From the NCBI RefSeq assembly GCF_000337575.1, contig NZ_AOIM01000009.1:55114-119113 (forward strand): 64,000 bases of DNA. The letters run 5' to 3'. The notes beneath the pieces were generated by a model that worked only from the letters and a program-made list of their open reading frames with translations, was not told the DNA's origin and ran no database searches. This DNA comes from Natrialba hulunbeirensis JCM 10989 (GTDB lineage Archaea; Halobacteriota; Halobacteria; Halobacteriales; Natrialbaceae). Both the position numbers and the translations under genes were made by a program. Below are positions 9,665-15,627 of this stretch, one piece after another; positions within the stretch are counted from its first letter, which is position 1, and each line of letters starts with the position of its first letter.

Positions 9665-9994
9665 TTACTCGCCGTCAGTTTCGAAGTAGAGCTCCGCGTG
9701 CGCCCCACAGCCCGGATTGAACGGCGCGTCGCAGTTCGGACACTCGTACGCACAGTCGAGGTAGTCAGGAACCGTGAACGTGGCATCACAGACGCCACAG
9801 CGGACGGACGGTTCGTCGAATCGATGTTCGGGCCAGGGGACTGCCTCGTGATCCGTCACGGCGTTGTGGCATTGAAAACAGGGATAGTAGGCGTCACAGC
9901 AGGCAAAGCGGAACGCGACGACGTCTAGTTCGCTGTCGTAGTGGTCACACCGCGTGTCGGGGCCGACATCGACGCCACGGATTGGGAGAGACAC
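9665..9994 (-). CDS. CHY-type zinc finger protein
   Basis: A 109-residue protein rich in paired Cys and His: CDHY near the start, CCDAYYPCFQCH near 33-44, CGVCD and CPNCDAPFNPGCGAH near the end. This is the CHY zinc finger pattern (yeast Hot13 and Pirh2 N-terminal type), binding about three zinc ions. The eukaryotic relatives act in redox or ubiquitin pathways; the archaeal role is not established. It sits 66 bases downstream of gvpO on the same strand and might be cotranscribed. Confidence 0.85.
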   Translation of the reverse strand: MSLPIRGVDVGPDTRCDHYDSELDVVAFRFACCDAYYPCFQCHNAVTDHEAVPWPEHRFDEPSVRCGVCDATFTVPDYLDCAYECPNCDAPFNPGCGAHAELYFETDGE

Positions 9995-10060: not shown

Positions 10061-10741
10061 TTACTCGAACGCGGTCGTGTCTCCGCGGCGATACCTGTCG
10101 AGCCGTCGGTACCCCTGGACGACGCCGTCCGTGTCGAGGTCGATTTCGTACCGGCCGAGCACGTCCTGCGTGTCCGGAATCGACGATCGCTCGACGACCT
10201 CGACGACGGCACACCAGCCCTCGTCGGTCGGCGAGATTTCGCTGACGCCGTCGAACTCGTGGCCGATGAGTTCACCGGCCGTCGAGACGACGGTTCGGCG
10301 GATCGCGAGCACGCCTTCGATCTGGTCGGAATCAATGTCGGACTCGACCTCGATGTCGAAGTCGTCGGTGTCGACGTCGCCGGGGTCTGTTGTTTCGTCG
10401 CTTGCCATATGGGTTTCTTCGTCTGTCTGGTCGGTCTCTGAGTGGTCAGCGTCAGACTGTGCTTGATCTTGTTCCTCGTCCTGCTCTTGCTCTTCGCCGT
10501 CTCCGTCCTGGTCCTCTGCTTGCCCTTGCTCCTCGCCGTCTCCGTTTTCCTCTTCAGCGTCCTGCTCCTCTGATTCGTCACTCGATTCGTCCGTCTCGTC
10601 GTCGGACTCACTCACTGTCGGATCATCCTCGTCGTGTTGAAAGCAAAAGCCGTCTTCTCGGGCTGGCCGCGAGCAGCGCTCGCCGTCGGCGGTGAGCGCC
10701 TTACACTGCGTCGTCGCGTCCGCTGTCTCTGCGTTTGCCAT
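10061..10741 (-). CDS. gvpO: Gas vesicle protein GvpO with an N-terminal Cys/His knuckle extension
   Basis: The C-terminal 115 residues match GvpO, an essential gas vesicle assembly protein (SPTDEGWCAVVEVVERSS, then GRYEIDLDTDGVVQGYR). In front lie 111 extra residues: a C13-x9-C23-x9-C33-x2-H36 motif that may bind zinc, then a long Asp/Glu/Gln linker. Methionine 112 (ATG at 10408) would give a protein of normal GvpO length (about 119 residues in Halobacterium). The gene lies 4 bases after gvpN, so cotranslation is likely. Confidence 0.92.
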   Translation of the reverse strand: MANAETADATTQCKALTADGERCSRPAREDGFCFQHDEDDPTVSESDDETDESSDESEEQDAEEENGDGEEQGQAEDQDGDGEEQEQDEEQDQAQSDADHSETDQTDEETHMASDETTDPGDVDTDDFDIEVESDIDSDQIEGVLAIRRTVVSTAGELIGHEFDGVSEISPTDEGWCAVVEVVERSSIPDTQDVLGRYEIDLDTDGVVQGYRRLDRYRRGDTTAFE

Positions 10742-10745
10742 ACTC

Positions 10746-11903
10746 TCAGTCTCGAAGTACCTCGCTAATCTGACTTCGCAGGGACGTCATCCCGTCGACC
10801 TCCGTCTCCGAGCCGGCGACTTTCGGACCGAGTACGTCCGTCAACACGTCCGCAAGCAGGTCGTCATCGTCGCCGAACTGGATCTGGCCGCCGTCTGTCC
10901 GCCCAACTGCAGCCTCGCCGCCGTCCCAGTCATCGAACACCGAGAGCCCTTTCGCGGCCGTAATCGCAGTCCGCGTTCCGACGACGATCGGTAACTCCTC
11001 ACGCAGCGTCCGGGTCGCGTCGACGACCGTCTCGATCGCCTCGTCGGAGACCGTCTGGCCGTCGCCAGTAGACTCGTCCTGCGCTTCGGACACGTGTGAC
11101 CGAACGATTTCGCGCTCGGTCTCTGCGTCGTAGTAGTCGACGTGTACGCCGACCATCCGGTCGAGCAGCGCATCCTGTTGCTGGTGGACACCCGCGTACT
11201 CCACGTCGTTCGACGTGAAGATCACGCGGAATTCCGGATGTACGTCGATCGACCTGCCGGCTCCGTGCTTACCCGGCCGCTCGAGTACACCCTCCTCAAG
11301 GACGGAGAGCAAAACGTTGTGGGCGGCGGGGTCGCTCCGGGAGAACTCGTTGTAGACGAGCGTTGCGCCCTCCCGGACTGCGACGGAGAGTGGGTTGTCG
11401 ACCCAGCGGTCACGGACGATCTGCGTCTTCTTGCTGACGCCGCTGACGTACTGGTCGTGCTCCTCGTAGCGTTCGCCGCCGCTGTAGTCGCCGACGAGCG
11501 CGCTCGTGTCGACCGCCTCGTCGCCGTTTGAGAGGACGACTTGCCGCCCGCGCGCTGCGGCCGCTGACAGTGCGAGTGCCGTCTTGCCAGCGCCGGTCGG
11601 GCCGATCAGGTGAACCGGCTGATCGGCAGCGAGCCAGCCGGTGATGCGGTCACGAACGGCGGTGACGGCGTCGGTTTCGACGAACGGTTCCGGTGCGGCG
11701 TCGGCGGGGTCTATGAGGGGGTCGTCCTCACTCGTGCGCTGGGTGTGAGTACCCCCTGACTTCCCGGACGTCTCACCTTCTGTCTTCGTCTCCGATGCCG
11801 ATCTGGCCAGCTTCTTTCGAGCCTTGCGGCGCTGCTTCGCCTCCCGATCACCGCGAATCTTTCTGCCACGGACTTTGCGCTTGCGCGAGGTGTCCTCGGC
11901 CAT
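10746..11903 (-). CDS. gvpN: Gas vesicle ATPase GvpN
   Basis: A 385-residue MoxR-like AAA+ ATPase that supports gas vesicle growth. Walker A is GPTGAGKT at residues 101-108; VYNEFSRSDP is the Walker B region and FTSNDVEYAGVHQQQDALLDRM covers sensor 1 and the arginine-finger region. The first 33 residues are strongly basic (KRKVRGRKIRGDREAKQRRK), unusual in a haloarchaeal proteome and possibly a binding tail. Second gene of the leftward gvpA-gvpN-gvpO operon, 6 bases after gvpA. Confidence 0.95.
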   Translation of the reverse strand: MAEDTSRKRKVRGRKIRGDREAKQRRKARKKLARSASETKTEGETSGKSGGTHTQRTSEDDPLIDPADAAPEPFVETDAVTAVRDRITGWLAADQPVHLIGPTGAGKTALALSAAAARGRQVVLSNGDEAVDTSALVGDYSGGERYEEHDQYVSGVSKKTQIVRDRWVDNPLSVAVREGATLVYNEFSRSDPAAHNVLLSVLEEGVLERPGKHGAGRSIDVHPEFRVIFTSNDVEYAGVHQQQDALLDRMVGVHVDYYDAETEREIVRSHVSEAQDESTGDGQTVSDEAIETVVDATRTLREELPIVVGTRTAITAAKGLSVFDDWDGGEAAVGRTDGGQIQFGDDDDLLADVLTDVLGPKVAGSETEVDGMTSLRSQISEVLRD

Positions 11904-11909
11904 CGTGGA

Positions 11910-12197
11910 TTATTCGGTGGCCGATTTCGGCGAGGATTCGGGCCGCGGCTCGACCTCGAGCTCTTCTAGGTCCTCGAGGTCGCCCTCCGCGGTCGCTTGC
12001 TCAATTTTTGCGATCTCCTCCGCGTAGTGCAGGAACGTGTCGACGGAAGCGACGACGACACGAGCCTCGATGGTGAGGAGTTCGATCCCGACGACCGAGA
12101 CGCGCGCCCAAACGTCGATGACGACACCCTTGTCGAGTACGCGGTCCAGTACCTCCGCGAGACTCGATGAATCAGGCCGCCGTTGTGGTTGTGCCAT
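11910..12197 (-). CDS. gvpA: Major gas vesicle structural protein GvpA
   Basis: A 95-residue shell protein whose amphipathic beta-hairpin monomers form the ribbed gas-permeable wall. The conserved core [29 protein letters not shown] is intact, with an acidic tail ([14 protein letters not shown]). It is longer than the 76-residue Halobacterium GvpA. The ATG at 12197 was chosen because homology starts there; a GGGGTGA Shine-Dalgarno-like site (12211-12217) precedes it by 13 bases. First gene of its operon, divergent from gvpF. No other gvpA copy is visible, but GvpJ and GvpM are paralogues. Confidence 0.96.
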
Positions 12198-12239
12198 TGC
12201 GAGTCGCGATTCACCCCGGTTTCGTAACACGACTTTCGT

Positions 12240-12311
12240 TGCGACTGCAAGCCAGTTGCTGGCGGCGAGCGTTTCCAAATCGGTATTGCTAGCTGGGCTG
12301 CGACTGCAAGC
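12240..12311 (-). repeat. 13-bp direct repeat upstream of gvpA
   Basis: TGCGACTGCAAGC occurs exactly at 12240-12252 and 12299-12311, a 59-bp period, starting 43 and 102 bases upstream of the gvpA ATG. The location suits an activator or repressor site for the gvpA promoter. It does not match the GvpE upstream activating sequence known from Halobacterium and Haloferax. Confidence 0.6.
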
Positions 12312-12323
12312 AGTACGATAACG

Positions 12324-12464
12324 CACGGGGCTGTCGAACACTTCCTGACGATTGCGTTTCACGACTGTGGGGACGGGATCACTGCCGCCGTTGCCGTCGA
12401 GACCGACGCCGACGGATCGAACTGGTGCGTGACCGTGTCCCTGGTCCGATACACCCGCTTATGA
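12324..12464 (+). pseudogene. Possible remnant of a protein-coding gene between gvpA and gvpF
   Basis: The frame starting at 12324 reads as a plausible acidic haloarchaeal C-terminus ([20 protein letters not shown], then [18 protein letters not shown]) ending in TGA at 12462-12464, with about 75 percent G/C at third positions. No ATG or GTG start exists between the upstream in-frame stop at 12225 and this stretch, so it cannot be an intact gene. It resembles neither GvpD nor GvpE as I know them. Confidence 0.3.
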
Positions 12465-13316: not shown

Positions 13317-13571
13317 ATGTTCGTTCTCGACGACCTCCTGTTCCGGCCGTTCGTGGGCATCATCGACGCGCTACACTCACTCGCACTCGAGGAACTCTAC
13401 GACGTGGACGCACTCGAGGACGAGCGCAAGGAGAACCAGTTGCTATACGAGCTCGGGGAGCGCTCGGAGGAGGAATACCTGGAGCGAAAGGAAGTGATCG
13501 AGGAGGAACTCGAAATCGCTCGTGAGGTACACGAGCAGTTCGGGAGTGGGCGTGTCGAGGTGAAGCGATGA
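13317..13571 (+). CDS. gvpG: Gas vesicle protein GvpG
   Basis: An 84-residue, mostly helical charged protein (MFVLDDLLFRPFVG, then ENQLLYELGERSEEEYLERK) typical of GvpG, a minor accessory protein required for vesicle formation. The ATG at 13317 fits the family start; a GTG at 13308 that overlaps the gvpF stop would add three residues. Its last codons overlap gvpH by 4 bases. Confidence 0.93.
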   Translation: MFVLDDLLFRPFVGIIDALHSLALEELYDVDALEDERKENQLLYELGERSEEEYLERKEVIEEELEIAREVHEQFGSGRVEVKR

Positions 13572-14608
13572 TGGTTCCTGATGGAGGTGGTGGTGCGGGC
13601 GATGGTGGTGGTAACGGTAGTGGCGGTGACGGCGGTAACGATGGTGGCGGTAGCGGTAGTGGTGGCGGTGCCGGTGCCGGAACCGGTGCTGATGGTACTG
13701 GCGACCGTGACGGCAACGGCGACAGTGGCCGTGATCGACGAGGCCGACACGATGGACGTGATGAGCAAGATGGACGAGGCGACTGGGACGACTGGGACGA
13801 GCGGCGAGAGCGCAAACGCGATTCGCGCCGTTCTCGTCCCAGCCGCGATTCGAGCACCGGCTGGCTCGCCACGGTCCGAGCCCTGCTCGACCGACTGGAG
13901 GGAGATTCGACGTCCAACACCCTCTCGAGTCGTGGCCAACGAAGTCGTGACCGGTCGATATTCGATTACAACATCTCGGTCCGAACGGGCGATGATCTGC
14001 TTGCTGACTCCCGGTTCGGCGACTCGATCGCCGACGAATGGCTCGACCGATTCCGCAAGCGCGACAGTACGGGTGACGAAGACGCCGAACGACCCCGAGG
14101 ACGAGACACACCGTCCAAATCGTGGTCGCGTCGACATTCACCGCGCTCATCGTCGGATCGGTCCTCACGTGTCCGCGACGCCGCATCGACGGGATCGTCG
14201 CCACCGTCGCCGGGAAGCGACACCGGTCTTGACGACCACCGCGTGACGACGCGCACGCACGAAGACGAACTTCTCGTCATCGCCGATGTCTCCGGCATCG
14301 ACCACGAGGACGTCACAGTCGGCTTCAGCGACACCGAACTGGTCGTCGTGGTCACCGACACCGAACTCGAGCGCGTCGACGTTCCCTGGCCCGATCGAAC
14401 CGGTCAGGCGGCGATTAATAACGGTGTTTTGACCGTCCAGGTCCGTCCCGATCAGTCGGACACGGCTGACGATGAGTTGAGGAGAGACTCGAGTACGGAA
14501 TCGAGGTCAGAATCGGATTCGGGCTCGGATTCGGGCTCAAACTCGAGTTCGAACGCCGACTCGAACACCGGGCCAGAGACCGAGTCTGAATCAGGGGGAG
14601 AGCTATGA
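13568..14608 (+). CDS. gvpH: Gas vesicle protein GvpH (Hsp20-like) with glycine-rich head
   Basis: A 346-residue protein with an alpha-crystallin/Hsp20-type beta-sandwich at about 224-294 (ELLVIADVSGIDHEDVTVGF, then AINNGVLTVQV). GvpH is a chaperone-like accessory protein, not strictly essential in Halobacterium. Residues 1-45 are nearly all Gly/Asp/Ala/Asn, residues 46-220 are Arg/Ser/Asp-rich, and the C-terminus is a Ser/Asp tail. The likely conserved core between these is short (STGWLATVRALLDRLEG, SIFDYNISVRTG). It is much longer than the Halobacterium protein. It overlaps gvpG and gvpI by 4 bases each. Confidence 0.87.
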   Translation: MMVPDGGGGAGDGGGNGSGGDGGNDGGGSGSGGGAGAGTGADGTGDRDGNGDSGRDRRGRHDGRDEQDGRGDWDDWDERRERKRDSRRSRPSRDSSTGWLATVRALLDRLEGDSTSNTLSSRGQRSRDRSIFDYNISVRTGDDLLADSRFGDSIADEWLDRFRKRDSTGDEDAERPRGRDTPSKSWSRRHSPRSSSDRSSRVRDAASTGSSPPSPGSDTGLDDHRVTTRTHEDELLVIADVSGIDHEDVTVGFSDTELVVVVTDTELERVDVPWPDRTGQAAINNGVLTVQVRPDQSDTADDELRRDSSTESRSESDSGSDSGSNSSSNADSNTGPETESESGGEL

Positions 14609-15627
14609 GCGACGACTCGGTAACCGACTCGGTCGATGCCGAACTCGGCGACCTCGTCGCGAATGCGGAGGAGGCAATCGAGGCACTCGCGGAGTTCAGC
14701 GAGGAGGGCGGCCTCGACCCCGACAGCCTCGACGACGACACCCTTACCGACCTCTCACAGAACCTCGACACCCTCGCCGAACTGGCGACCGAACTCGAGT
14801 CCGTCCTCGAGACGGTCGACCTGTCGGACCTTCCGGACGCAATCGACGCCGACGAGGTCGTCGGAGCGATCGAAGCGGACGAGGTGCCGTCGGCGCTGGC
14901 GGACGACGACACCGGTGTGTCCGATGCAATCGATTTCGGACACCTCTTTCGGGCGATCAATCTGCTCGACGCCTGGGACGCGACTGACCTCGGCAGTCTC
15001 TGGGAGGCGAAACGTGACATCGAGGAGACGACCGAGAAACTGACCGGCGACGACGGGGACGGACTCACGGAGGGTCTCGTCGGCGGTGACGACGGTGAGG
15101 ATGGTGACGACGGTCTCCTCGACACGGACCTCGACGGCGACATGCTCGAGACCGATATTGACCCCAGCGAACTACTCGGCGACATCGACGTGATGGACGA
15201 TCCCGAGGCATACCAGGTCGCGATCCAGCAGACGGCGATGGCGGGAATCGACAGCTTTCGCGAGGCGCTACTCGAGACACACGCCAAATTCTTCCGCATT
15301 TACGAGTTCAATCGGGAGAAGATGCGCCGCCAGGATACAAGTACGAACTCGCGCAATCCGACGGCGGCGTCGACGATGCCGACGGAGCGAGCGGATGTCC
15401 CCAGCGGCGTCAAGCACTCGACGGTGCCACAGCAGGTCAAGCTATCGACGGCTCCGAGCCGGCAGCGGATCTACGGCAAGCGGTTCGAGCGCGAGCGGAA
15501 GAAACGCCGCAACGATGCCTCTCCCGACGAGACTGAAGACGAACAGGCGACCGAACAAGCGACCGAACAGCCGGCAGACCAGCGTGCGAGCGACGATGCC
15601 GGAAACGCCGACGGAGGTGCGAACTGA
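14605..15627 (+). CDS. gvpI: GvpI-position gas vesicle cluster protein, large acidic version
   Basis: A 340-residue protein in the position of gvpI (between gvpH and gvpJ). The N-terminal 170 residues are acidic and Leu-rich, probably helical (NLDTLAELATELESVLETVD). The middle (AYQVAIQQTAMAGIDSFREA) may be a folded helix bundle. The C-terminal 110 residues are basic (STVPQQVKLSTAPSRQRIYG, then KRFERERKKRR), the type of sequence expected for the small basic GvpI. I assign it by position and basic tail, not by a clear full-length match. Confidence 0.6.
   Translation: MSDDSVTDSVDAELGDLVANAEEAIEALAEFSEEGGLDPDSLDDDTLTDLSQNLDTLAELATELESVLETVDLSDLPDAIDADEVVGAIEADEVPSALADDDTGVSDAIDFGHLFRAINLLDAWDATDLGSLWEAKRDIEETTEKLTGDDGDGLTEGLVGGDDGEDGDDGLLDTDLDGDMLETDIDPSELLGDIDVMDDPEAYQVAIQQTAMAGIDSFREALLETHAKFFRIYEFNREKMRRQDTSTNSRNPTAASTMPTERADVPSGVKHSTVPQQVKLSTAPSRQRIYGKRFERERKKRRNDASPDETEDEQATEQATEQPADQRASDDAGNADGGAN

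Follow-up and report, generated by a model that had tools for sequence, protein, structure and literature searches.

The gvpO gene of Natrialba hulunbeirensis JCM 10989 encodes a GvpO protein in which a CCCH zinc knuckle (DUF5763) is carried on a disordered acidic tether before the GvpO core. The best overall explanation, to which an even chance is given, is that the knuckle serves as a structural docking module, perhaps with a headless GvpO as second product of the same gene. The gene itself is a typical representative of GvpO halophile-type, a family already catalogued, and the surprise lies in a wider exchange of modules and in conserved internal start codons. New in this study are the pattern of modules on GvpO with respect to gvpC, the presence of the head on GvpJ and the conserved internal start codon. 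The features below are given in coordinates of the window, i.e. the whole stretch of 64,000 nucleotides that was analysed.

10061..10741, minus strand: gvpO, long form of 226 amino acids; open reading frame with its ATG at 10741, Pfam matches to GvpO and DUF5763
10601..10714, minus strand: zinc-knuckle head, residues 10-47 (C13, C23, C33, H36), matched by DUF5763 and NF045806
10409..10600, minus strand: acidic, low-complexity, fast-evolving linker, residues 48-111, with many indels
10406..10408, minus strand: candidate internal start ATG (Met112), in frame
10061..10408, minus strand: predicted short GvpO of 115 amino acids, a hypothetical second product suggested by conservation of the internal start
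10076..10306, minus strand: GvpO core, residues 146-222 (Pfam PF05800, E 3.5e-28)
10746..11903, minus strand: gvpN (AAA ATPase), immediately upstream of gvpO (AAA_5, E 1.2e-15; gvpN family relations)
11910..12197, minus strand: gvpA, shell protein, with the start chosen at MAQPQ (Gas_vesicle, E 8.2e-16 on the ORF 11910-12362)

The open reading frame, the ligand spacing C13-x9-C23-x9-C33-x2-H36, the acidic linker that follows and the C-terminal GvpO core had all been described in an initial annotation made from the sequence, and ORF and Pfam matches bear them out; the in-frame ATG at 10408 that it pointed out is indeed present as Met112. The cluster is arranged in the order gvpA-gvpN-gvpO, with gvpF/G/J/K divergent, and 4 nt separate the gvpN stop codon from the start of the gvpO head. 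Since the gap between gvpA and gvpN is just 6 nt, no gvpC lies between them, and a profile search of the source genome gave no Halo_GVPC match. A CHY zinc-finger protein is encoded directly downstream of gvpO (9665-9994, minus strand), and at 13568-15627 (plus strand) lie genes resembling gvpH and gvpI that carry long extensions; a GvpI extension of over 200 residues is also described in the N. magadii genome paper (PMC3403918). The named relatives of this genome within Natrialba are Natrialba sp. SSL1, N. chahannaoensis, N. taiwanensis, N. asiatica and N. aegyptia.

The family assignment was confirmed by profile matches well over their cut-offs. DUF5763 (PF19067) matches residues 10-47 with E 2.6e-18 and 65.6 bits (cut-off 26.3), the CCCH ligands being present, NCBIfam NF045806 (GvpO_arch_Nterm) matches residues 11-45 with E 2.8e-22 and 78 bits (cut-off 52 bits), and the Pfam GvpO core reaches 97.9 bits against a cut-off of 25 bits. 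The position beside gvpA and gvpN in a gvp cluster is that of a halophile-type GvpO. NF045806 is described as 'gas vesicle protein GvpO, halophile-type', a name used in public Natronorubrum and Haladaptatus records; the head is not new as a domain, both Pfam and NCBIfam modelling it already. No paper on DUF5763 was found in the literature collection that was searched.

The comparison of orthologues proposed in the initial annotation showed that the head is widespread. In two separate profile searches of 392 haloarchaeal genomes, 121 had a head match over cut-off and 163 a match to the GvpO core, so that about three quarters of the GvpO-bearing genomes have the head; on these counts the headed form is the rule and the short Halobacterium GvpO the exception. 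The view of the extension as a peculiarity, for which the short Halobacterium protein had been the yardstick, has to be given up. In a phylum-wide sample, head matches over cut-off were confined to the window's own order. The fetched loci contain 28,100 ORF fragments with a length of 50 amino acids or more, and among these the head-type motif occurred in 84 GvpO, 2 GvpJ and 10 other ORFs, all ten of which stood in loci fetched for head matches elsewhere and none of which was another ORF near gvpO. The head motif on GvpO is not a chance occurrence. Outside gvp clusters, four loci encode a conserved haloarchaeal protein (about 185 amino acids) that has a DUF5763-type knuckle at its C-terminus (L199:8914-9483, minus strand; L200:8907-9461, minus strand; L201:8934-9491, minus strand; L202:8409-9110, plus strand).

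There is practically no doubt that the head is real and translated. Pooled over seven Natrialba sequences, dN/dS was lowest in the core (0.041) and next lowest in the head (0.099), with higher values for residues 112-145 (0.242) and the linker (0.356). In all 40 headed loci with gvpN, the head ATG follows the gvpN stop codon by 1-126 nt, while the distance to the internal Met is 223-341 nt. Head dN/dS and operon spacing together rule out that the extension is untranslated or its start misannotated, and the low head value (0.10) also answers the doubt, raised in the initial annotation, that the upstream codons might show no purifying selection. The four ligands (three Cys, one His) are invariant in 86/86 heads; beyond the ligands, Ala15, Thr17 and Arg22 are invariant too. 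In the AlphaFold2 model, residues ~11-40 are compact (pLDDT 91-94), the linker is disordered (pLDDT mostly below 50) and the core consists of one helix and four strands with high pLDDT. The invariant ligands and the confident head model agree with the earlier suggestion of a plausibly zinc-binding Cys/His knuckle fused to GvpO, and a structural zinc fold is predicted for the head with high probability.

Sequence and fold searches of the PDB with the head gave no significant match. The CCCH zinc finger of Mcm10 shares a short zinc knuckle (28 columns at 1.3 A) but only at E 5 in the fold search, and the SAP30L zinc finger has the local motif DGERCxRPA in common with the head at E 0.07 by sequence, neither of them significant; no kinship of the head with the Mcm10, SAP30 and SAP30L fingers was established. 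Matches in a viral library were weak, several of them being small zinc-finger proteins. Homology to the C-terminal zinc finger of GvpC was likewise rejected (hhalign probability 0.2%), the ligands of the head being spaced differently from the CxxC...HxxxH motif of that Ros-type finger.

The distribution of the head was followed in 128 GvpO loci, and because these were selected by the analyst the following module counts are not frequencies. A module is present on GvpO in 112 of the 114 clusters without gvpC (exceptions L098 and L102), a lone GvpO outside any cluster (L086) being left out of the count. It is the zinc head in 84 cases, a helical module in 25 and a helix-hairpin-helix in three. 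The helical module is conserved ('TIDELxxEL...GEDRTGAxEAIDERL') and has no Pfam name; two of the three helix-hairpin-helix modules were tested and matched HHH_5 with E 1.6e-17 and 1.3e-07. In all 13 loci with gvpC, GvpO is bare and short and it is GvpC that ends in a module, again on an acidic tail: a Ros/MucR-like zinc finger in 11, matched at E 7.8e-05, below the Pfam cut-off, and a SAP-like helical domain in two. These two divergent GvpC proteins (L103:6575-7831, plus strand; L114:10258-11313, minus strand) have a SAP/HeH-like helical domain, itself without a Pfam match, in place of the zinc finger. Both cluster types are found in one genome, G024 (L160 and L114).

A tree of 121 clusters requires at least six changes of state, its deep branches being weak, and places all clusters with gvpC in one clade (99%). 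The mutual exclusion of head and gvpC therefore represents one phylogenetic contrast, and many independent events are ruled out. In two genomes the zinc head is found on GvpJ, fused C-terminally via an acidic linker (L198:8914-9438 and L180:4105-4839, both minus strand); the L198 fusion matches GvpJ with E 5.6e-44 and NF045806 over cut-off.

Two further observations were made on these loci. Many clusters have gvpA directly before gvpO with no gvpN within about 9 kb (L071, L072, L119-L152 and others), and gvpN matches in the fetched loci numbered only 55. One genus has two close, divergent gvpO genes, of which one bears the head and the other no module (L115, L116, L117, L123, L133, L137-L141).

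The proposal that one gene yields two proteins is well suggested by sequence features in some families, and a second product is possible in Natrialba. The candidate internal start was taken as the first ATG of the linker or, failing that, a GTG followed by Ser, Ala, Thr or Asn. Such a codon is present in 62/84 headed GvpO (48 ATG, 14 GTG), and about a quarter have none. The residue after a linker Met is Ser, Thr, Ala or Asn in 46 of 52 cases, whereas these four make up 30% of linker residues. Where Val-Ser stands in place of the Met-Ser or Met-Ala of sister clades, the codon is GTG in 12/12 cases (three clades), compared with 12/163 for other linker Val, a descriptive figure, as these sites had been selected by eye in a printed list. 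A Shine-Dalgarno sequence of four or more bases precedes 18/25 candidates outside the window's family, where the other codons in those linkers would lead one to expect 7.05; with one candidate per clade the count is 7/12 against 3.5 (P 0.02), although P values for codons and Shine-Dalgarno sequences are inflated by the relatedness of the sequences. The window's family shows no enrichment of this kind (5/37 against 9.5 expected), and the Met112 ATG, conserved in 7/7 Natrialba, lacks a Shine-Dalgarno sequence, which makes the second product no more than possible in this genus. Met is nevertheless the most conserved column (32/43) of the variable stretch that precedes the ETTDP motif in that family. 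A leaderless promoter ahead of 10408, considered because the gvpO transcript of Halobacterium is leaderless, was rejected, as inspection of the 60 upstream bases by eye showed no AT-rich box.

These data have to be weighed against the alternative that the internal Met or GTG is a fossil, a start codon inherited from an ancestral short GvpO and unused since the fusion. This reading, which opposes the second-product part only, comes close to an even chance: a candidate is missing from about a quarter of headed GvpO, the window's family shows no Shine-Dalgarno enrichment, and the downstream ETTDP motif is kept even where the Met is lost. The alternation of ATG and GTG between related clades with Ser, Thr or Ala next, the preference for GTG over other Val codons at the Met site and the Shine-Dalgarno enrichment outside the window's family argue against it. 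On balance, a short second product is possible yet rather doubtful in Natrialba, and somewhat more probable in the families with Shine-Dalgarno sequences. Internal initiation would add a headless GvpO of Halobacterium size, and one gene could then supply the cell with both docked and free forms.

For the head itself we propose a docking function. GvpO is essential for gas-vesicle formation, as shown for the Halobacterium protein only; CBD-GvpO binds GvpA monomers and multimers, and GvpN and GvpO bind the C-terminal domain of GvpC, which has a zinc-finger motif (PMC9372576). gvpC is absent from Natrialba magadii and other haloarchaea (PMC3403918; PMC4390858), and several species without gvpC, including N. 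magadii, were reported to have no gas vesicles (PMC4390858). The knuckle would be a structural rather than a sensory zinc fold that holds GvpO to a partner in gas-vesicle assembly. On the simplest reading each machine would need one tethered docking module, supplied by GvpO where GvpC does not bring it. Where gvpC is present, GvpO is bare and an unrelated module (Ros-type zinc finger or SAP-like) occupies a comparable acidic tail of GvpC, which is where GvpN and GvpO bind in Halobacterium. The constraint on the head, the distribution of modules with respect to gvpC and the reuse of the head on GvpJ speak for docking; the reports of species without gvpC that form no gas vesicles, the single phylogenetic contrast and the lack of homology between the head and the GvpC finger speak against it. 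An even chance is given to the docking role, which is inferred, as is any target. The wider scheme, with one exchangeable docking module per haloarchaeal machine (on GvpO, GvpJ or GvpC) and a zinc-knuckle gene that makes both docked and headless GvpO, is offered as a rather unlikely one.

Three other roles can be considered. The head might merely aid the solubility, folding or turnover of GvpO as a tag on a tether with no specific partner, in line with the acidic disordered linker and with a head that is exchangeable or absent; the strong constraint beyond the ligands and the reuse of the head on GvpJ make this improbable. Slightly less probable again is a nucleic-acid-binding module that would tie GvpO to DNA or RNA, either in autoregulation or in positioning vesicles at the nucleoid. 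The swapped-in modules do have relatives of DNA-binding type (HHH_5 and, sub-cut-off, Ros/MucR-like), and of the two proteins that the head faintly resembles, Mcm10 and SAP30L, the former binds DNA through its ZnF1 (PMC5333062), but none of the head's likenesses reaches significance, both the head and the linker are acidic, and helix-hairpin-helix and Ros-like folds mediate protein contacts too. The zinc or redox sensor gating assembly that was first envisaged is very improbable: the site has three cysteines, but its invariance suits a structural site equally well, the head has no spare cysteine, and sensing does not predict replacement by helix-hairpin-helix or helical modules that have no such ligand set.

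A conserved, exchangeable module on most haloarchaeal GvpO, missing where GvpC brings its own, yields a concrete, testable hypothesis for the placement of GvpO on the growing vesicle, and the conserved internal start provides a clear test case for two-product coding in archaea. Compared with catalogued domains, the window protein has the head-linker-core order of NF045806 followed by PF05800, and its head aligns to 38 of the 39 positions of DUF5763, a domain without known function that is fused in gvp clusters to GvpO and twice to GvpJ. Its linker is at the long end: the two domain matches stand 98 residues apart, and the relatives measured span 13-98. The GvpO of Halobacterium salinarum shares the homologous core and the operon position after gvpN; it differs in having no head, in an organism whose gvpC carries its own C-terminal zinc-finger motif, and this short form should not be taken as the norm.
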